Shown here piece after piece: positions 23,595 through 31,554 of a stretch of DNA of 64,000 bases (the stretch's first letter is position 1; each line of letters begins with the position of its first letter). Source of the DNA: Streptacidiphilus albus JL83 (GTDB lineage Bacteria > Actinomycetota > Actinomycetes > Streptomycetales > Streptomycetaceae); NCBI RefSeq assembly GCF_000744705.1, contig NZ_JQML01000001.1, forward strand, positions 1,798,001-1,862,000, written 5' to 3'. The translations under genes and the position numbers were made by a program. The notes under the pieces were generated by a model that saw only the letters and a program-made list of their open reading frames with translations, searched no databases and was not told the DNA's origin.

Positions 23595-23786
23595 TTAGAC
23601 CGCCCCCACGAAGGCCGCGAGCGCAGCAGCAGGGAAGACCAGAGCCGGCCCGTCGGGGTCCTTGCTATCACGCACCGGGACGCTGCCGGAGATGAACCCG
23701 AGCGCCACCTCGACGCAGGCGCCGCCGTTGCTGCTGTAGCTGGACTTGAACCAGAGAGCGCCAGTCAGATCCGCAGACTGACCCAT
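23595..23786 (-). CDS. DUF397 protein 1, C-terminally truncated
   Basis: 63 residues starting MGQSADLTGALWFKSSYSS, with NGGACVEVALGF and VPVRDSKDPDGPALVFP, the DUF397 hallmark. Compared with the copy at 30226-30459, sequence is nearly identical until AAG (Lys) is replaced by TAA; twelve further codons (AGEFAEGERYVGL) are still readable beyond it before a second stop. AGGAGG precedes the ATG. DUF397 proteins are small partners of XRE regulators in Streptomyces. This gene appears to be the third of a DUF397 set separated from its XRE operon by the 6.4-kb transposon array. Confidence 0.8.
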   Translation of the reverse strand: MGQSADLTGALWFKSSYSSNGGACVEVALGFISGSVPVRDSKDPDGPALVFPAAALAAFVGAV

Positions 23787-23821
23787 GGACGCACCTCCTC
23801 TCAATGCCCCGATGTGGACTA

Positions 23822-23851
23822 AGTGGTCGGGTCCGGAAATCCTTCGGGGGG
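23822..23851. repeat. left terminal inverted repeat of cassette A
   Basis: Starts AGTGGTCGGG and contains TCCGGAAATCCTTCGGGG, the inverse of the ends at 25050, 27478 and 30195. It is immediately preceded by TA and by the DUF397 gene 1 leader. Confidence 0.75.
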
Positions 23852-23980
23852 ACTGCGGAGCCGTTTTGCGCGGTCGCGGCTTCTGGAGTGGCCTTGGAAC
23901 TCGCTGGCCGGCGGTGTACGGAGGTCGTTTCCGAGGGGTAGCCGGGCTGTGCGGCGAGGCGTTTGATGGGATGACGGGTT

Positions 23981-24018
23981 GCCCGCGGCGGGCCCCATTG
24001 CGGTGGCCTGCCGCGGGC
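23981..24018 (-). terminator. stem-loop after secreted repeat protein
   Basis: GCCCGCGGCGGGCC (23981-23994) pairs with GGCCTGCCGCGGGC (24005-24018) with a single mismatch. It starts 7 bases beyond the stop codon of the leftward gene at 24025. Confidence 0.7.
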
Positions 24019-24024
24019 GATGGA

Positions 24025-24753
24025 CTACGCGATCAGGCACTCCGCGTAGGTCTGTGTCACCGCATCAAGGTCGCGGGCTTCGAAGTTGTTCTGCCAGGTT
24101 CCTTCGTTCTCCGGGTCTGGCCTACTGACGTTAGGCGTATCCTTACCGGTCGTGGTGAACCCGCCGCCGAGAACGACTTGCGGGGAGGGGCAGTCGGCTC
24201 CGGTGACCTGGTGGACGGTCAGTGTGCCGCCGGTCTCGCAGACGCCGTACGCCGTTTCGATAGCGCCGTGGACGCTGCTGACGGTCCAGGTCTTGTTCGC
24301 CGCGTCCGGGAAGGACCGCTGCACCAACTCGGTGCTGTTGCTCCACCCACCGCCGGTCAGGGTGCCCGTGGGACACGTGGCCTGCGACGCTCCGGTCACG
24401 ATCGTGCTGAGTAGGCCGTCCGGGTCCACCTGGCACCGAGCGTATGCCTCGGCATCCGGGTGGCCACTTTCGCCAGCAGTCTTGTCCGCCGTGACAGTCC
24501 AGCTGCTCTTTGACGACGGGTAGCTCGCGTCGACGACCCGGTCGCTGTCGACCTCGTAGCCGCCGCCGGTGACGGCATAGCCGGCCGGGCAGGTGGCGGT
24601 GAGGGTGAGCACGTTGTCGCTGGAGCCGCTGACGGTGACGGTCTTGACGAGGACGGCGGCGGACGCGGCGTGGGCCGGCAGGCCGACCAGGGCCAGGCTT
24701 CCCATGCTCAGGGCGATGGCCATGCGGGTGGGGATGGGCATGCGCAAGCGCAT
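24025..24753 (-). CDS. secreted three-repeat protein (cargo of cassette A)
   Basis: 242 residues. Signal peptide of about 33 residues (RMAIALSMGSLALVGLPAHAASA). The mature part has three repeats of roughly 60-65 residues, each with a Cys-Pro and triple-Gly motif: CPAGYAVTGGGYEVD, CPTGTLTGGGWS, and CPSPQVVLGGGF; each repeat ends with a second Cys (YARC, GVC, AEC), so three intramolecular disulfides are likely. No enzyme motif is visible. Start ATG at 24753 has AAGGAG 7 bases upstream. Proteins of this pattern are common in actinobacteria without known function. It is the only gene of cassette A. Confidence 0.8.
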   Translation of the reverse strand: MRLRMPIPTRMAIALSMGSLALVGLPAHAASAAVLVKTVTVSGSSDNVLTLTATCPAGYAVTGGGYEVDSDRVVDASYPSSKSSWTVTADKTAGESGHPDAEAYARCQVDPDGLLSTIVTGASQATCPTGTLTGGGWSNSTELVQRSFPDAANKTWTVSSVHGAIETAYGVCETGGTLTVHQVTGADCPSPQVVLGGGFTTTGKDTPNVSRPDPENEGTWQNNFEARDLDAVTQTYAECLIA

Positions 24754-24990
24754 GGGAAGCTCCTTGTGATCAACTGGATGCTGAGAGTAATAGACTTTGC
24801 ATCGAGTAGATCATGCTGCCCAATGCAGGGATATGGACAAGAGTGCGGAATCGTCCGTATGGCCGGTGGTACGCCACCTCCCGCACGCCTCCCGCGCGCG
24901 GTTCGGTCAGCGGACCCGTTGACCACCGGCCTGGGCACCGTCCCTCGCCGCGCGCCCTGTACCCGATAGCGTTCCCGGCGGGCGCCCGCC

Positions 24991-25049
24991 CTCGACTCGA
25001 CCGACACACACCCGTCGACCGATAGCAAGAAACTGTCCCGACGGCCTGA
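24991..25049 (+). pseudogene. transposase 3' remnant in cassette A
   Basis: CTCGACCGACACACACCCGT and the following bases match the last 20 codons of the IS630 transposase at 29007-30194 (LDRHTPTDRHQESS), including CCTGATCAACCCCC at the stop codon. A TAG interrupts the frame after LDRHTPVDR. Only about 60 bp remain, in the same orientation as the intact copy. Confidence 0.6.
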
Positions 25050-25122
25050 TCAACCCCCGAAGGATTTCCGGAGCAGACCACTAAGTGGTCGGCGCCGAAG
25101 ATCCTTCGGGGGGTTGATCAGG
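25045..25122. repeat. cassette A/B junction: back-to-back terminal repeats
   Basis: A 78-bp near-palindrome. CCTGATCAACCCCCGAAGGA on the left is mirrored on the right, with GACCACTAAGTGGTC at the centre. It reads as the right end of A, a single TA, and one end of B. Confidence 0.8.
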
Positions 25123-25462
25123 CTGCCAGGGTGATGGAGGATTCTTGGTGTCGGTCGGTGAGTGTGTGCCGGTCGAGCCGGACCAGCAGATCGTCCAGGT
25201 CGGGGGCGGTGAACTTCCGCTGGAACGGCTGTGCCGCGGCGTTGTAGCGGTCTTCGAATGCTCGGAGTCGGTGTACTCCCACCTCGACGGCGATCCGCGC
25301 GTTGGACCTGCCCTGTGTCGCCAGGAGCACGATCTGTGACCGGACCCTGGCCTGGTGCGGAGTCTTGTGGCCGTAGGCCGCCTTCTTCAACCGTTGCCGC
25401 TCGGCGGCGGTCAGGACTGCGGGGCGGGCGGCAGCAACAGGCAAGGCAGATAAGCCGATCAG
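25118..25462 (-). pseudogene. internally deleted IS630-type transposase
   Basis: 114 codons join the first ~64 residues of the transposase (LTAAERQRLKKAAYGHKT, GRSNARIAVEVG) to the last ~48 (RAFEDRYNAAAQPFQRKF, LDRHTLTDRHQESS) in frame. Relative to the full copy at 29007-30194 about 280 residues are missing, including all three catalytic acidic residues. The start codon position reads CTG instead of GTG. The product, if made, would be a small HTH-containing protein that could still bind the ends. Confidence 0.85.
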
Positions 25463-25494
25463 CAGAAGTGGATCACAATGCCATGGGGGTCTTG

Positions 25495-26403
25495 CTATGC
25501 CGTCTCGTGGTGGAGGGGGTCCAGGGCGATGAGTTCGTCCTGCGACAGGCGCAGCGTGCCGACGGCGACGTTCTGGTCGAGGTGGTCGAGGTCGCCGGTG
25601 CCGGGGATGGCCAGGACGTGGGGGCCCTGGTGCAGGGTCCACGCCAGCCGGATCTGGGCTGCGCTCACGCCGCGGGCGCGGGCGATGGCGTTCACTTCCC
25701 GGCTGTGGTCGGTGGTCGCGCCGGCGGTGCGTCCGATGCCGGCGATCGCGTAGAACGGCACGAACGCGATGTGTTGCTCACCGCAGATGCTCAGGAGTTC
25801 CTTCTGCTCGGGCGATGCGCCGATGCCGTACATGTTCTGGACGCAGACCACCGGCGCGATGCTCTGGGCCTGGGCGAGGTGGTGGGGGCGGACGTTGGAC
25901 AGTCCCAGGTGGCGGATGAGTCCGGCGGTGCGGAGTTCGGCCAGTGCGCCGAAGCGTTCGGCGACGGAGTCGGTGCCGACGATGCGCAGGTTCACCACGT
26001 CGAGGTGGTCGCGGCCGAGCTGGCGCAGGTTCTCCTCGACCTGGCCGCGCAGTTGCCCGGGGGTGGCGTGAGGCAGCCACCGGCCCGAGGGGTCGCGGCC
26101 CGGTCCGACCTTGGTGGTGATGACGAGGTCCTCCGGGTAGGGGGCCAGTGCCCGGTTGATCAGCTCGTTGGCCGAGCGCAGCGGTGAGAAGTAGAACGCG
26201 GCGGTGTCGATATGGTTCACCCCCAGGTCAACGGCGCGACGCAGGACACTGATCGCCTGCTCGCGGTCGCGTGGGACGGCGTCGGCTGCGAACGCTTCGC
26301 CGTGCTGGGTCAGGCGCATCGTGCCGAACCCGATCCGCTTGACGGTGCGGTCGCCGAGGGTCCAGATGCCGGATGCCGCCGCAGTGGTCGTCTGTGAGGT
26401 CAT
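25495..26403 (-). CDS. aldo/keto reductase (cargo of cassette B)
   Basis: 302 residues, TIM-barrel NADPH-dependent oxidoreductase. Motifs: GFGTMRLT near residue 25, the catalytic Asp/Tyr segment GVNHIDTAAFYFSP near 63 (Asp and Tyr of the tetrad), VITTKVG with the Lys near 93, and the cofactor-end IPGTGDLDHLDQNV near 270. The fourth tetrad residue (usually His) falls in LDVVNLRIVG, where His is replaced by Asn-Leu-Arg; such members often reduce rather than hydroxylate poorly, so activity is uncertain. ATG at 26403 has no clear ribosome site. Divergent from the ArsR gene across 67 bases. Confidence 0.88.
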   Translation of the reverse strand: MTSQTTTAAASGIWTLGDRTVKRIGFGTMRLTQHGEAFAADAVPRDREQAISVLRRAVDLGVNHIDTAAFYFSPLRSANELINRALAPYPEDLVITTKVGPGRDPSGRWLPHATPGQLRGQVEENLRQLGRDHLDVVNLRIVGTDSVAERFGALAELRTAGLIRHLGLSNVRPHHLAQAQSIAPVVCVQNMYGIGASPEQKELLSICGEQHIAFVPFYAIAGIGRTAGATTDHSREVNAIARARGVSAAQIRLAWTLHQGPHVLAIPGTGDLDHLDQNVAVGTLRLSQDELIALDPLHHETA

Positions 26404-26470
26404 GGCGCGATGATGTCCGCAGGGTAGGCTGGCCTGCCATTGATTAAGACATGCCTGAATCCGAAGAGGA

Positions 26471-27469
26471 GTGATCGTCCTGGCAGGGCTGGCGTTCTCG
26501 GCAAGCGATCTGGCGCAGGTGCGGTTCGCCGTCTCACCGATGTGGGAGGTCGCGCCCAGCTTCCGTCTGCTGATGTCCGGTACCACACATCCGGTCCACC
26601 GGCGCTGGGCCGACCAGGTACGGCCGCGCCTGCTGGCCGCCGGGCTGGACCGGGGCTGGCTGGCCGAGCTGATCCCGCCCACCGGCTACGTCCCCGACTT
26701 CCTCAACCCAGCACCGGCCGCACCGGCCCCCACACCGCAGGAAGAGCGGGACGCGATCCGGGCCGCGCCCGCCGACCGGGTACGCCAGGACCTCGACCAC
26801 CTGGCCCGCCACCAGGGCAACCTCCTCGGCCCCCGACTGCGCACCCTGCACGCCGACCCGCCAGGCCGCCTCGCCAAGGTCACCGAAGAGATCGAAACGT
26901 ACTGGGAGCTGGCACTCGCCCCCTACTGGGCACGCATCCGGGCCGTCCTGGAAGCAGACATCCTCCACCGGGCCCGCATCGCCGCCGAGCACGGCACCGG
27001 CCACCTCCTCAACGACCTGCACACGTCGGTGAGCTGGGACGGCAATGCGCTGCGGATGTCCGGCCGCAAGCAGCCGCTGACCCGCCAGGCGGCCGGCACG
27101 GGACTGCTGCTGATCCCCTCGGCCTTCACCGGACCGGGACTGCGCACCCGAACGACGCTGCCGGATCCACCACAACTCGTCTATCCGGCGCGCGGTGTCG
27201 GTCCGCTGTGGCAGGCGCGGCCAGCTGTCCGGGCCGACACCCTCTCCGCCGTACTCGGCCGCTCGCGGGCCCTGCTGCTGACCGAACTGGAGACCCCTGC
27301 CTCCACTACACAGTTGGCCCACCGCACAGGGCTCTCCACCGCCGGGGTATCCCAATATCTGGTTGCGCTACGCAACGCGGGCTTGGTCAGCGCCCACCGC
27401 GCCGGCCGCTCCGTCCTCTACGCCCGCACCACCGCAGCCGAAGCCCTCCTCCAAGCCGCATCCGCCTGA
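26471..27469 (+). CDS. DUF5937/ArsR-type regulator (cargo of cassette B)
   Basis: 332 residues. N-terminal DUF5937-like region (QVRFAVSPMWEVAPSFRLLM, and RQDLDHLARHQGNLLGPRL, ELALAPYWARIRAVLEADI) and a C-terminal winged helix (SRALLLTELETPASTTQLAHRTGLSTAGVSQYLVALRNAGLVSAHRAGRSVLYART). The GTG at 26471 directly follows GAGGA, which is too close; translation may begin a few codons later at a CTG, or the RNA may be leaderless. Divergent from the aldo/keto reductase gene, which it probably controls. The stop is 8 bases before the cassette B end repeat. Confidence 0.85.
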   Translation: MIVLAGLAFSASDLAQVRFAVSPMWEVAPSFRLLMSGTTHPVHRRWADQVRPRLLAAGLDRGWLAELIPPTGYVPDFLNPAPAAPAPTPQEERDAIRAAPADRVRQDLDHLARHQGNLLGPRLRTLHADPPGRLAKVTEEIETYWELALAPYWARIRAVLEADILHRARIAAEHGTGHLLNDLHTSVSWDGNALRMSGRKQPLTRQAAGTGLLLIPSAFTGPGLRTRTTLPDPPQLVYPARGVGPLWQARPAVRADTLSAVLGRSRALLLTELETPASTTQLAHRTGLSTAGVSQYLVALRNAGLVSAHRAGRSVLYARTTAAEALLQAASA

Positions 27470-27470
27470 C

Positions 27471-27549
27471 CTCACGTCAACCCCCGAAGGATCTCCGGAG
27501 TCGACCACTAAGTGGTCGCCGTTCGAATTCCTTCGGGGGTTGACGTGAG
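27471..27549. repeat. cassette B/C junction: back-to-back terminal repeats
   Basis: A 79-bp inverted repeat: CTCACGTCAACCCCCGAAGG is mirrored exactly at its right side, around a central GACCACTAAGTGGTC. It joins the outer ends of B and C through one TA (27509-27510). Confidence 0.8.
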
Positions 27550-28070
27550 AGGTGGGTGGCGGGGGAAGCCGGGACTGACCGCGGTGGACCTGGTGGTCGC
27601 TGCGGTAGTTGGGTTGCCGCGTCTGCTGCGCCGTGTGCTTGAGCCGCGCGACTGGGCGGTGTCCGCCTCGCGATGACGATGCCCGCCTGGCTGGAGGGGA
27701 AGGGCGGACGCTCCGAGGCACACTGCCACCGGGGAAATGATCGACGGGTGCGCTACCTGGTGGACAACGGCCAATGCTGTTGCTTGAGTTAGTAAAGTAA
27801 TACTGGGTCGCGCGAGCGGCCGGTCCGCGAACATGGGCTGGCTCAGGACGCGGTCGAACGCGCCTGGCCCCGCGAGGTCGAAGGGCACAGCGCGATCTCC
27901 GTCCGGATCAGCGCTGCTTGACGAGCCGGAACCCGGGCCTTGGGCCAGGTGGAGTATGCCGAACCGGTTCTGCACCTCCCTCGGGGGTGATTCGGCGTGT
28001 CCATGATGGTTCGGAGACGCAGGCGCCGGGAGCCTGGAGCCACTGTTCCCGAGCTGAAGGATCTTCCCTC
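27550..28070. other. non-coding 5' part of cassette C
   Basis: About 520 bases without a convincing gene. An A/T-rich patch at 27775-27805 (GAGTTAGTAAAGTAATACTG) may contain a promoter. The stretch just before the cargo gene contains CCTCCCTCGGGGG. Confidence 0.4.
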
Positions 28071-28577
28071 ATGTCGTACCGTACGAAGCTGCGCGGCGCC
28101 GTGGTCGGCAGCTGCACCATCACCCTGCTGGCCGGAGCCGGCCTGTTCACGCTCCCCGCGCAGGCCGCCCCGGCCACTCCGGCCGTCCGGGCCGTCCAGG
28201 CCGTCTCGGTCGCCCACGCCACCAGGGCCCGCCGCGACGAGCGCCCCGCGGCTGAGGTGGCCTCGTTCTTCCAGGCCTACCAGGACGCAGTGAACGGAAC
28301 GAGCTCCAAGACTCCCCAGCAGGTACGCGAGGAGTACATGTCGGCTGTCCTCAACACCGAACTCGACCTGTGGGCCAGCACCCACCAGGCCGACCCCATC
28401 TACCGCAAGAACGAACCCATCGCCAGCTTCAGCACCACAGGCCAGGCACCTGGCGAACTGGGACACACCGACGTCTACCTCACCATGAACTACACCGACG
28501 GCACCAGCCTCAACGTCGCGTACACGGTCCGTGACTCCGACCTGGCGATCACCGGCCTCAAGAACACCCCCTCCTGA
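28071..28577 (+). CDS. small secreted protein (cargo of cassette C)
   Basis: 168 residues. Signal peptide about 1-32 (VVGSCTITLLAGAGLFTLPAQAAPA), an Ala/Val/Arg-rich linker, then a compact domain of about 110 residues: AEVASFFQAYQDAVNG, EEYMSAVLNTELDLWASTHQADPIYRKNEPIASFS, and YLTMNYTDGTSLNVAYTVRDSDLAITGLKNTPS. The shape recalls NTF2/SnoaL-like folds or secreted inhibitors, but no family is recognised. Start ATG at 28071 with GAAGGA 9-11 bases upstream. A strong terminator follows. It is the only cargo gene of cassette C. Confidence 0.75.
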   Translation: MSYRTKLRGAVVGSCTITLLAGAGLFTLPAQAAPATPAVRAVQAVSVAHATRARRDERPAAEVASFFQAYQDAVNGTSSKTPQQVREEYMSAVLNTELDLWASTHQADPIYRKNEPIASFSTTGQAPGELGHTDVYLTMNYTDGTSLNVAYTVRDSDLAITGLKNTPS

Positions 28578-28588
28578 TGAACCATGCC

Positions 28589-28623
28589 CCTGCTCCCGGC
28601 CGTCGAAGGCGGCCGGGAGCAGG
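28589..28623 (+). terminator. rho-independent-type stem-loop
   Basis: CCTGCTCCCGGCC pairs perfectly with GGCCGGGAGCAGG (13 bp) around a 9-base loop, 11 bases after the stop of the small secreted protein gene. Confidence 0.8.
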
Positions 28624-29006
28624 GCCGTGTACCGCAGGACGAACAGACCATTCCCGGACGGACACCATCATCACGTGCTCACTGCGGTGCCGGTAAATCT
28701 GCTGACGGGTCGTCGGAGTGCTTGGCAGAGCATGGGGCTGGCCAGTTCATTCGGTTGGTCAGATGGTGGGACACGCCGCCGGTGGCGCACCTGGGGAGCT
28801 GCTGGTCATCGAGCTACAGGCCGGTTCACCACCACGCGCTCAAGACGCTAGTGCCTTGATCGCAGTTGAGTCGAAGTCACGCGCCGTCTTCCGGTGTCCG
28901 CTGACCGACTGGGTATGGCCGCCCTCGTGCCCAGTCCGACGGATGGACGAATCTCCCCGGGCCCGCCCGGGTCCGGCAGAGTACGGGCCGATGTGATCCA
29001 CTTCTC
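28624..29006. other. non-coding gap before transposase
   Basis: About 380 bases without a gene. Homology to the deleted copy in cassette B begins at TGTGATCCACTTCT (28993-29006), directly before the transposase start, so the ancestral single IS may have begun near here and the 1.5 kb to the left may be acquired. Confidence 0.4.
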
Positions 29007-30194
29007 GTGATCGGCCTGCCCGCCATGCCCGTTGCCACCGCTTGTCCGATCGTGCTGACCGCCGCTGAGCGGCACCAGCTGAAGAAGGCGGCCTACGGCC
29101 ACAAGACCGCCTACCGGGCCCGGAATCGGGCACAGATCGTGCTGCACGCGGCCCGTGGCCGCTCCAACGCCCACATCGCCCGCGAGACCAGGCTGCACCT
29201 GGACACGGTCCGCACCTGGCGGGGCCGGTTCGCCGACGGCGGCCTGCCGGCACTGGCCGACCGCAAGCGGCCCGGACGCCCGGCCCGTTTCACCCCCGTG
29301 CAGGTCGCCGAGGCCAAAGCCCTGGCCTGCCAACTCCCAGCCGAGACCGGGATACCACTGGCGCGCTGGTCCTGCCCGGAGCTGGCCGCCGAGCTGATCG
29401 CGCGCGGCGTCACCGACTCCGTATCGGCCTCCACCGTGCGCCGCTGGCTGCGCCAGGACGCCATCAAGCCCTGGCAGTACCGGTCCTGGATCTTCATCCG
29501 GGACCCGGACTTCCGTGGCAGGGCCCAGCGCGTCCTCGACCTGTACGCCCGCACCTACGAAGGCGAACCCCTCGGCGCGGACGAGTACGTGCTCTCCAGC
29601 GACGAGAAGACCTCGATCCAGGCCCGCTGCCGCTGCCATCCGACCCTGGCCCCGGGTCAGGCCAGGGCGATGCGCGTCAACCACGAGTACAGACGCGGCG
29701 GAGCCCTGGCCTACCTGGCCGCCTACGACGTCCACCAAGCCGACGTCCTTGGCCGCTGCGAGGCCACCACCGGCATCGTGCCGTTCATGGCGCTCGTCGA
29801 ACAGGTCATGACGCAGGAGCCCTACGCCAGCGCGAAGCGCGTCTTCTGGATCGTCGACAACGGCTCCTCGCATCGCGGCAAGAGATCAATCGACCGCCTG
29901 GCCGCCCGATTCCCGAACGCCGTCCTGGTCCACACCCCGGTCCACGCCTCATGGGTGAACCAGATCGAGATCTTCTTCTCCATCGTGCAACGCAAGGTCG
30001 TGACGCCCAACGACTTCACCGACCTCGACCAGGTCAGAGCCCGGCTCCACGCATTCGAAGACCGCTACAACGCCACAGCACAGCCGTTCCAGTGGAAGTT
30101 CACCACCTCCGACCTGGACGATCTGCTGGCCCGGCTCGACCGACACACCCCCACCGACCGACACCAAGAATCCTCCGTCGCACTGACTGCCTGA
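29007..30194 (+). CDS. IS630-family DDE transposase
   Basis: 395 residues. N-terminal two-part HTH region (LTAAERHQLKKAAYGHKT, IARETRLHLDTVRTWRGRF, then VSASTVRRWLRQ) followed by an RNase H-like DDE catalytic domain: Asp199 in LSSDEKTS, Asp284 in WIVDNGSSH and Glu321 in WVNQIEIFFSIVQRK. Spacing matches the IS630/Tc1-mariner group, which inserts at TA. The start is GTG at 29007, without a clear ribosome site; ATG at codon 7 is an alternative. The stop codon TGATCAACCCCC abuts the right terminal repeat. Deleted or degenerate relatives lie in cassettes A and B. Confidence 0.93.
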   Translation: MIGLPAMPVATACPIVLTAAERHQLKKAAYGHKTAYRARNRAQIVLHAARGRSNAHIARETRLHLDTVRTWRGRFADGGLPALADRKRPGRPARFTPVQVAEAKALACQLPAETGIPLARWSCPELAAELIARGVTDSVSASTVRRWLRQDAIKPWQYRSWIFIRDPDFRGRAQRVLDLYARTYEGEPLGADEYVLSSDEKTSIQARCRCHPTLAPGQARAMRVNHEYRRGGALAYLAAYDVHQADVLGRCEATTGIVPFMALVEQVMTQEPYASAKRVFWIVDNGSSHRGKRSIDRLAARFPNAVLVHTPVHASWVNQIEIFFSIVQRKVVTPNDFTDLDQVRARLHAFEDRYNATAQPFQWKFTTSDLDDLLARLDRHTPTDRHQESSVALTA

Positions 30195-30226
30195 TCAACC
30201 CCCGAAGGATCTCCGGTCTTGACCAC
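30192..30226. repeat. right terminal inverted repeat of cassette C
   Basis: TGATCAACCCCCGAAGGATC through GACCAC, overlapping the transposase stop codon and followed by TA (30227-30228). It is the outer right boundary of the three-cassette array. Confidence 0.75.
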
Positions 30227-30459
30227 TAAGCAGTGACGTACTGCTCGCCCTCGGCGAACTCGCCGGCCTTGACCGCACCCACGAAGGCCGCGAACGCAGC
30301 AGCAGGGAAGACCAGAGCCGGCCCGTCGGGGTCCTTGCTGTCACGCACCGGGACGCTGCCGGAGATGAACCCGAGGGCCACCTCGACGCAGGCGCCGCCA
30401 GATTGACTGTGGCTCGACTTCGACCAGGGAGCGCCAGTCAGATCTACGGGGTGGCTCAT
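30226..30459 (-). CDS. DUF397 protein 2
   Basis: 77 residues: MSHPVDLTGAPWSKSSHSQS, GGACVEVALGFISGSVPVRDSKDPDGPALVFPAAAF, and the C-terminus AGEFAEGEQYVTA. AGGAAAGG lies upstream of the ATG at 30459. Its stop codon TAG straddles the junction with the transposon array: TA is the target dinucleotide and the final G comes from the array end. It is 31 bases downstream of DUF397 gene 3. Confidence 0.88.
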   Translation of the reverse strand: MSHPVDLTGAPWSKSSHSQSGGACVEVALGFISGSVPVRDSKDPDGPALVFPAAAFAAFVGAVKAGEFAEGEQYVTA

Positions 30460-30490
30460 GAATGCCTTTCCTCTCATGCCGCGAGGCAGA

Positions 30491-30733
30491 CTACGGGGTG
30501 ACCTGCTGCTCCCACTCGGCGAACTCGCCAGCCTTGATCGCGCCTACGAAGGCCACGAACGCAGCGGCGCGGAAGAGCAGCGTCGGACCTTCAGGGGCCT
30601 TACTGTCGCGCACCGGAACGAAGCCGGAGATGAACCCAGGCGCCACCTCGATACAGGCACCACCGTTGTCGCTGTGGCTGGACTTGAACCAGGCGGCACC
30701 GGACGACTCGATCTGATCAGTCACGAGGAGCAC
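30491..30733 (-). CDS. DUF397 protein 3
   Basis: 80 residues, with SSGAAWFKSSHSDNGGACIEVAPGF and VPVRDSKAPEGPTLLF. It overlaps the end of the XRE regulator gene by 13 bases, so the two are translated together. GTG at 30724 (VTDQIES) is an alternative start. In Streptomyces such DUF397 partners act with DUF5753 XRE proteins, some in development (the BldB/WhiJ-type systems). Confidence 0.88.
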   Translation of the reverse strand: MLLVTDQIESSGAAWFKSSHSDNGGACIEVAPGFISGFVPVRDSKAPEGPTLLFRAAAFVAFVGAIKAGEFAEWEQQVTP

Positions 30734-31554
30734 AACTCCTTCCGTACCTCTTGGATCATGGCGAGGGAGTTAGCTTGGGACAGCGCGTCAACCTGCAGCC
30801 AATCGTACTCTCTCTCCCATGCTGCAACCGAGTCGCTTTCACGCTCCAGAAAGCCGCGCTGGTGCGATTCTGTGTAGCCGAGCACAGTTCGGTCGGGCAT
30901 CGTCAGCAGCCACACAGGCAACACGAACGGGCAGCGCTCGCCGAGTTCGTATGGGGCCACCTGAATGATCCTCCTGGGCTGCTCAGCCACACTCTCCAAC
31001 TTAGCAAGCTGATGCACCATCACCTCTCGCCCTCCGACCATGCGGCGCAGGCAGCTCTCATCGAGGACGACATGGACGACGGGAGCGGGAGAGCGACCCA
31101 GGAGGGCCTGTCGAGTAGCCAGGAAGGCGACCCGCTCATCCGCCTGCTCCTGGCTGATGCTTCCCCGCCTGACCGCTGCGGCAGCCAACGCCATCGCATA
31201 CTCAGGAGTCTGCAACAAGCCAGGGATGACTCCCAGCTCGAAGGCCCTTATCTTCGCCGCCTTTGCCTCTCGCGCGGCAAACTCCGGGAATCCTTCGATG
31301 AGTGCTGCGTGCCTCAGGCTCCACCACATCAGTTCGAGCGTGCCGCCGGTCTCAAGAGCAGCATCAGCAGCGACGGAGATGTGAAGTGTTGCGGGCCGTT
31401 GCCCCCTTTCGAGGTAGGACACGTAGGTAGCGCTGTACCCGATCAGCTCCCCAAACTGTGCTTGCGACAGACCTTTGGCCTTACGTGACCGGCGCAGCTG
31501 CGTTCCATAGGCGGCCCACGGAGATGACGACGGGTCAAGATCAATCTCCCGCAA
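30721..31554 (-). CDS. XRE regulator with DUF5753 domain
   Basis: 277 residues: N-terminal XRE helix-turn-helix (LRRSRKAKGLSQAQFGELIGYSATYVSYLERGQR, residues 19-52) and a DUF5753 C-terminal domain (AFELGVIPGLLQTPEYAMAL, VVLDESCLRRMVGG, FVLPVWLLTMPDRTVLGYTE). It resembles the WhiJ-like regulators of Streptomyces that pair with a small DUF397 protein. It leads an operon with DUF397 genes 3, 2 and, before transposon entry, 1. An inverted repeat lies upstream of its start. Confidence 0.92.
   Translation of the reverse strand: MREIDLDPSSSPWAAYGTQLRRSRKAKGLSQAQFGELIGYSATYVSYLERGQRPATLHISVAADAALETGGTLELMWWSLRHAALIEGFPEFAAREAKAAKIRAFELGVIPGLLQTPEYAMALAAAAVRRGSISQEQADERVAFLATRQALLGRSPAPVVHVVLDESCLRRMVGGREVMVHQLAKLESVAEQPRRIIQVAPYELGERCPFVLPVWLLTMPDRTVLGYTESHQRGFLERESDSVAAWEREYDWLQVDALSQANSLAMIQEVRKELCSS

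Follow-up and report, generated by a model that had tools for sequence, protein, structure and literature searches.

Elements of the IS630 family, which is related to Tc1/mariner and includes IS630 of Shigella sonnei and ISY100, have a transposase with a DDE triad and terminal inverted repeats. The studied IS630 elements duplicate a 2-bp TA, and IS630 itself prefers CTAG (PMC2170065). Transporter insertion sequences (tIS) combine IS ends and a transposase with passenger genes unrelated to transposition, often together with a regulator (PMC3129680, PMC9330008, PMC6305408). Examples are the IS481-type ISArsp12 and the ISL3-type ISPst2 with an ArsR regulator and a permease, and an actinobacterial genus has IS481 and ISL3 examples (PMC6305408). 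IS ends enclosing passenger genes without a functional transposase are referred to as mobile insertion cassettes (MIC; PMC3129680). The group of elements described here shares with the IS630 family the IS630-type transposase with a predicted DDE triad, the terminal inverted repeats and a TA contained in the target, which reads CTWAG.

Layout of the array and its flanks

The window is a stretch of 64,000 nucleotides from Streptacidiphilus albus JL83 (C1:1798001-1862000 of a 9.9-Mb, single-contig genome). Positions 23823-30226 consist of three elements, A, B and C, arranged back to back with inverted ends of the type GTGGTC-N11-TCCTTCGGGGG. Element borders were counted from the terminal G of GTGGTC. 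The extended pattern AGTGGTC-N11-TCCTTCGGGGG is found at six out of six ends with 0 mismatches (23822+, 25082-, 25084+, 27509-, 27511+ and 30227-). The original prediction of three end-bounded segments was therefore correct, and the subterminal sequences are shared as it described, with the order outer end, cargo, transposase or its remnant, and transposase-proximal end. The single-TA spacers that it described, however, proved to be TAA, i.e. 3 bp shared between neighbors (borders at 23820-23822, 25082-25084, 27509-27511 and 30227-30229). Since all four duplications read TAA, the order in which A, B and C were inserted is not readable from them. The back-to-back junction pattern occurs four times in the window (two palindromes, counted on both strands each), compared with 0.00 expected from shuffles.

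Beyond the six ends of the array, the host genome contains one further end site with at most one mismatch. This lone relic end (one mismatch, C1:94893-94921, L105:5001) is located near the chromosome end, is followed by GTGGTCAGGCTG and has no transposase nearby. For the coordinates of all features see Table 1.

Table 1. Features of the array, its flanks and the small gene of related elements. Positions refer to the window unless a locus is given.
Feature	Position	Strand	Basis or remark
Left flank, DUF397 paralogue with a premature stop (nonsense codon)	23598-23786	-	outside the array; comparison with paralogues
Whole array including outer TAA duplications	23820-30229		end and border analysis
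Element A, 1.26 kb	23823-25081	+	ends exact; outer end left, transposase-proximal end right; MIC-like, without functional transposase
A cargo, 242-aa secreted-type protein with three repeats (TCPxG...GGG)	24025-24753	-	sequence
A/B junction palindrome	25043-25121		two transposase-proximal ends, common TAA 25082-25084
Element B, 2.4 kb	25085-27508	-	orientation opposite to A and C, with the transposase-proximal end on the left and the outer end on the right
B transposase remnant	25121-25462	-	internal deletion, aa 1-64 joined to aa 346-395
B cargo, aldo/keto reductase (AKR)	25495-26403	-	Pfam PF00248, 3.9e-46
B cargo, divergent DUF5937/ArsR-type regulator	26471-27469	+	Pfam PF19361, PF01022
B/C junction palindrome	27471-27549		two outer ends, common TAA 27509-27511
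Element C, 2.7 kb	27512-30226	+	outer end left, transposase-proximal end right
C cargo, 168-aa small secreted protein	28071-28577	+	its family present in 72 of 200 family genomes
C transposase, IS630 type, open frame	29007-30194	+	NCBIfam transpos_IS630 (NF033545), 4.4e-51
Right flank, DUF397 paralogue, stop codon overlaps target site	30226-30477	-	outside the array; comparison with paralogues
Copies of the ~111-aa protein	L074:2278-2616, L131:5605-5940, L133:4557-4892, L134:4549-4881		conserved in Streptomycetaceae, Mycobacterium and Rhodococcus

In element A the transposase-end region is cut down to approximately the last 90 bp (remnant 24993-25081). Its cargo protein gave 0 matches in Pfam, NCBIfam and PADLOC, and relatives within the family are weak only. 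The transposase remnant of element B is only 67-80% identical to the C transposase, so the array is not one duplicated element. In the B regulator, PADLOC matches to Csa3 cover the HTH. Divergent AKR and DUF5937/ArsR pairs of this kind (window 25495-27469; loci L141-L159) are common in Streptomycetaceae chromosomes without element ends, and a chromosomal pair is the likely donor of the B cargo. Most chromosomal matches to this cargo stop at the two gene ends, which indicates that a tight gene pair was taken up.

The C transposase scores 174 bits against NF033545 (cut-off 100). Its predicted catalytic residues D199, D284 and E321 are invariant in 27 of 27 aligned relatives. Phage records searched with the transposase yielded 0 relatives, and a search for plasmid relatives of the C cargo found none. 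Within their own end pair, the variable 11 bases of an element agree at 8.89 out of 11 positions on average, versus 7.23 for swapped pairs (0 of 20000 permutations). The end pair of C has only 2 out of 11 identical bases, the lowest value among 38 elements. Since the two ends are strongly unlike in these bases, C may be a hybrid; judged by its ends, it may also be immobile. Each of A, B and C occurs only once in the host genome.

The array is flanked by tandem DUF397 genes and an adjoining XRE/DUF5753 regulator (23598-23786, 30226-30733 and 30721-31554). The spacer between the second and the third DUF397 gene is a paralogous empty site that fits the array borders. In 14 genomes of the same genus no orthologous empty site was found for the array; only DUF397 paralogues matched.

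Distribution, target site and movement of the family

A search with the ends, as suggested in the original prediction, was done in 396 family genomes with one mismatch allowed. The end pattern was present in 70 of them, the reversed control in 0 of 396. The element set was compiled from convergent end pairs together with annotated plasmid relatives and comprises 40 delimited elements from actinomycete chromosomes and plasmids. All have one constant order: outer end (mostly with TTGAC inside), cargo, transposase, transposase-proximal end (mostly with TTGATCANGC inside). The distance from the 3' end of the transposase gene to the other inverted end is approximately 36 nt. Element sizes range from 1.26 kb (A) to 7.4 kb (L100). 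In L100 (L100:1001-8436) the transposase gene is split at approximately aa 285 by extra DNA with a gene for a beta-lactamase fold, possibly a nested insertion in which a second insertion took place inside the transposase gene. L087 is a composite with the transposase-proximal end at both sides, and several elements of the family have decayed transposases or ends. Gene calls of the codon model opposite the transposase strand were artefacts and were dropped. An arrangement as composite transposon, with two complete IS bracketing the cargo, was ruled out because there is one transposase per element.

The flanks of the elements follow the pattern C-TWA-element-TWA-G. In pairs with TWA on both sides the middle base agrees in 29 cases and differs in 4, and we conclude that at least 3 bp (TWA) are duplicated. 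The duplication may reach 5 bp, because the element starts with G and ends with C. In four elements (L093, L095, L099 and L129) the left side reads TTA and the right side TAA, and the opposite arrangement does not occur; a simple 3-bp duplication does not account for this. An orientation-dependent third duplicated base was ruled out, since TTA and TAA occur in both orientations.

Inspection of the borders showed that CTWAG is re-created on both sides of an inserted element, because the target C, TWA and the G of the element restore it on one side and the C of the element, TWA and the target G on the other. An existing element is therefore itself an acceptor, and the regenerated CTWAG at each border provides a simple reason for stacking. 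Insertion at the border site of a neighbor, part of the original prediction, is still the simplest reading of the array; the target and the duplication are CTWAG and TWA, respectively, and not TA. In 400 kb sampled across the host genome we counted 16 CTWAG sites, compared with 285 expected from composition and 115 from a first-order Markov model. This corresponds to an approximately 18-fold depletion, or about one site per 25 kb. The window contains eight sites, six of them outside called genes and four of them array borders. A long frame with high GC3 across the joined flanks was found in only 3 of 38 cases. Among 84,980 genomes the stacked junction pattern was observed on two other contigs (L138 and L139); repeats often break assemblies. 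At L138:70-135 an outer end meets a transposase-proximal end in a perfect palindrome, and the variable bases of the two are identical; a head-to-tail dimer of one element, or its circle junction, would look like this.

That elements of this family have moved is evident from their copies, from recurring cargos and from an empty site. The same-genome copies L074/L075 and L095/L096 (SnoaL cargo) are 99.6% identical and their homology stops at the borders. A MerR set is common to L076 (Kitasatospora cathayae plasmid) and L129 (Streptomyces NBC_00354 plasmid), and the alignment again ends at the borders. The AKR/DUF5937 set is common to element B and its relative L090, which aligns to B solely inside the borders. 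The same cargo is thus found at unrelated sites in different genera. The comparison of an empty with a filled site, which had also been suggested, was possible for another member of the family: L096 has a true empty site in G453, where 92% identity continues through GCTGCTTAGGATGA (CTTAG). The filled site reads C-TTA-GTGGTC...GACCAC-TTA-G. An empty site for L074 was sought in the same genus and gave no match outside its host.

Base form and cargo slot

Eight of the 40 elements represent a base form of 1.66–1.68 kb, which comprises the transposase and a divergent gene for a protein of approximately 111 aa. The copy of this protein that was tested had no match in Pfam, NCBIfam or PADLOC. An element can lose this gene and still persist. 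The base form occurs with the same CTWAG/TWA borders in Mycobacterium (L133) and Rhodococcus (L135). Rhodococcus ZPP (L134) has the gene order of the base form together with more divergent ends. Most other elements match the base form for approximately 30–390 bp inward from the outer end; the match breaks at the cargo and resumes at base position ~270–510. The breakpoints vary among elements, and remnants of the small gene are kept in several of them (L080, L081, L094 and L107). The base-form elements do not form one group in the transposase tree but are dispersed between those with cargo. L074 is the sister of the GNAT-carrying L094 (100/99) and L131 is the sister of L085 (100/98). These base/cargo sisters and the differing breakpoints indicate that the small gene was replaced by cargo several times independently. 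The reverse direction, from the cargo form to the base form, is unlikely because outgroups also have the base form.

We counted 27 distinct cargo sets, including the three in the window, all of them in one slot. What takes the place of the small gene is one gene, an operon or a divergent pair of regulator and enzyme, and a regulator is present in approximately 15 of the 27. TetR is found with an SDR, with a zinc dehydrogenase, an SDR and a hydrolase, with an MFS protein and a hydrolase, with a glyoxalase, with an epimerase-type protein and with a member of the carboxymuconolactone decarboxylase family. Other cargos with a regulator are MarR with a dehydrogenase as well as the MerR sets. Further cargos are amidase, nitrilase-type, GNAT, SnoaL, MFS and F420-type oxidoreductase proteins, an ice-binding protein, a beta-lactamase-fold hydrolase, a HEAT protein and a kinase-like protein. 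PADLOC assigned no defence system among the cargos tested, and its match to the HEAT protein was weak. The passenger-carrying IS630-type family with fixed order that had been predicted from the window is thus strongly supported by 40 elements with 27 cargos, and other cargos in the same order were found when looked for.

Origin of the array and relation to known elements

We consider it highly probable that three separate IS630-type elements with passenger genes are stacked in this segment, A and B being transposase-defective derivatives, and that the stack arose by successive insertion. The elements would move by transposase-mediated cut-and-paste, as other IS630 elements do. The array would have grown as unrelated members of the family inserted one after another into the regenerated border site, and stacking at a border may have been favored by the depletion of CTWAG in the host genome. 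Speculatively, both the capture of cargo and the frequent internal deletions of the transposase could arise when the gap that excision leaves in the donor is repaired incorrectly.

Relatives of many cargo genes lie on chromosomes without element ends, and in several elements the transposase or an end has decayed, as would be expected if ordinary IS630 copies and relic ends merely lay beside unrelated chromosomal genes that are not cargo. We regard this as very improbable, since elements at unrelated sites enclose the same cargo within the same borders (L095/L096, L076/L129 and L090/B), the SnoaL element has an empty site and the cargo is in one slot throughout. The strong hairpins formed by back-to-back ends could suggest terminators or regulatory hairpins of adjoining genes; the chance of this is negligible, because the ends pair at element distance, have target duplications and coincide with the borders of copies. 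The outcomes that the original prediction had named as evidence against itself were not observed: the ends do not act as terminators, another member of the family has an empty site, and the three segments in a row did not turn up in other genomes. A joint arrival of A, B and C as one composite unit would also leave inverted outermost ends with TAA on either side. It is improbable nonetheless, as paired ends and a separate TAA mark every internal border, and elements elsewhere usually stand alone.

A question of a different kind is whether anything in the array still moves. The array could be a relic of three landed or rearranged members, none of them mobile now, with C a hybrid that obtained its outer end from a lost neighbor. 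The end pair of C, the worst of 38, the missing transposases of A and B and the lack of a second copy of any of the three in the host genome are in line with this, whereas the open C transposase with its catalytic triad and the intact conserved parts of six out of six ends are not. We rate it at somewhat under an even chance, and it is compatible with successive insertion of three separate elements as the origin of the array. Mobilization of A and B in trans by the C transposase, as originally predicted, is possible. The separate lineages of A, B and C and the badly matched end pair of C weaken the case for this role. Defective copies elsewhere have duplications, which could be older than their decay, and no defective copy with the same deletion at two sites was found in the family set. 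Doubtful, in our view, is the broader idea that the group serves Streptomycetaceae as a general system for capturing and stacking genes, in which a replaceable slot and a rare, mostly non-coding CTWAG that is re-created on insertion would produce integron-like arrays at safe sites and defective cassettes would be moved in trans.

The group departs from studied IS630 elements in duplicating at least 3 bp (TWA) in CTWAG, and because it does not show the 2-bp TA duplication we call it an IS630-related group. Its base form has a second conserved gene and the group has many cargos, while studied IS630 elements have one transposase gene. With tIS it shares that ends, transposase and cargo move as a unit (L095/L096 copies, empty site), and element C has the anatomy of a tIS. 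It differs from them in the transposase family, in a single slot where at least 27 cargos replace an ancestral companion gene, and in stacking at regenerated targets. Like MIC, A and B enclose cargo between two ends and lack a functional transposase; unlike MIC they keep transposase remnants, and we therefore describe them as deletion derivatives. The resemblance to integron cassette arrays is an analogy only: small gene cassettes lie in a row and insertion re-creates the acceptor. Here, however, a DDE transposase is present, orientation is mixed and arrays are rare, and an integron was rejected as no integrase is found among the array genes scanned. We class the group as a new IS630-related variant of the transporter IS, an established kind along with MIC. 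An IS630-type group of this kind is not described in the literature searched (ISfinder lay outside that search).

The group is a compact, gene-carrying type of transposon that occurs in the main antibiotic producers among bacteria, both on chromosomes and on plasmids. It has at least 27 cargos, many of which pair a regulator with a detoxification-type or metabolic enzyme. Routine annotation masks it as an 'IS630 family transposase' next to ordinary genes, and the exact borders allow mobile accessory genes to be located. The 3-bp duplication in CTWAG is a testable departure from the TA rule of IS630 elements. The sister pairs of base form and cargo form provide material for studying gene capture by an insertion sequence.
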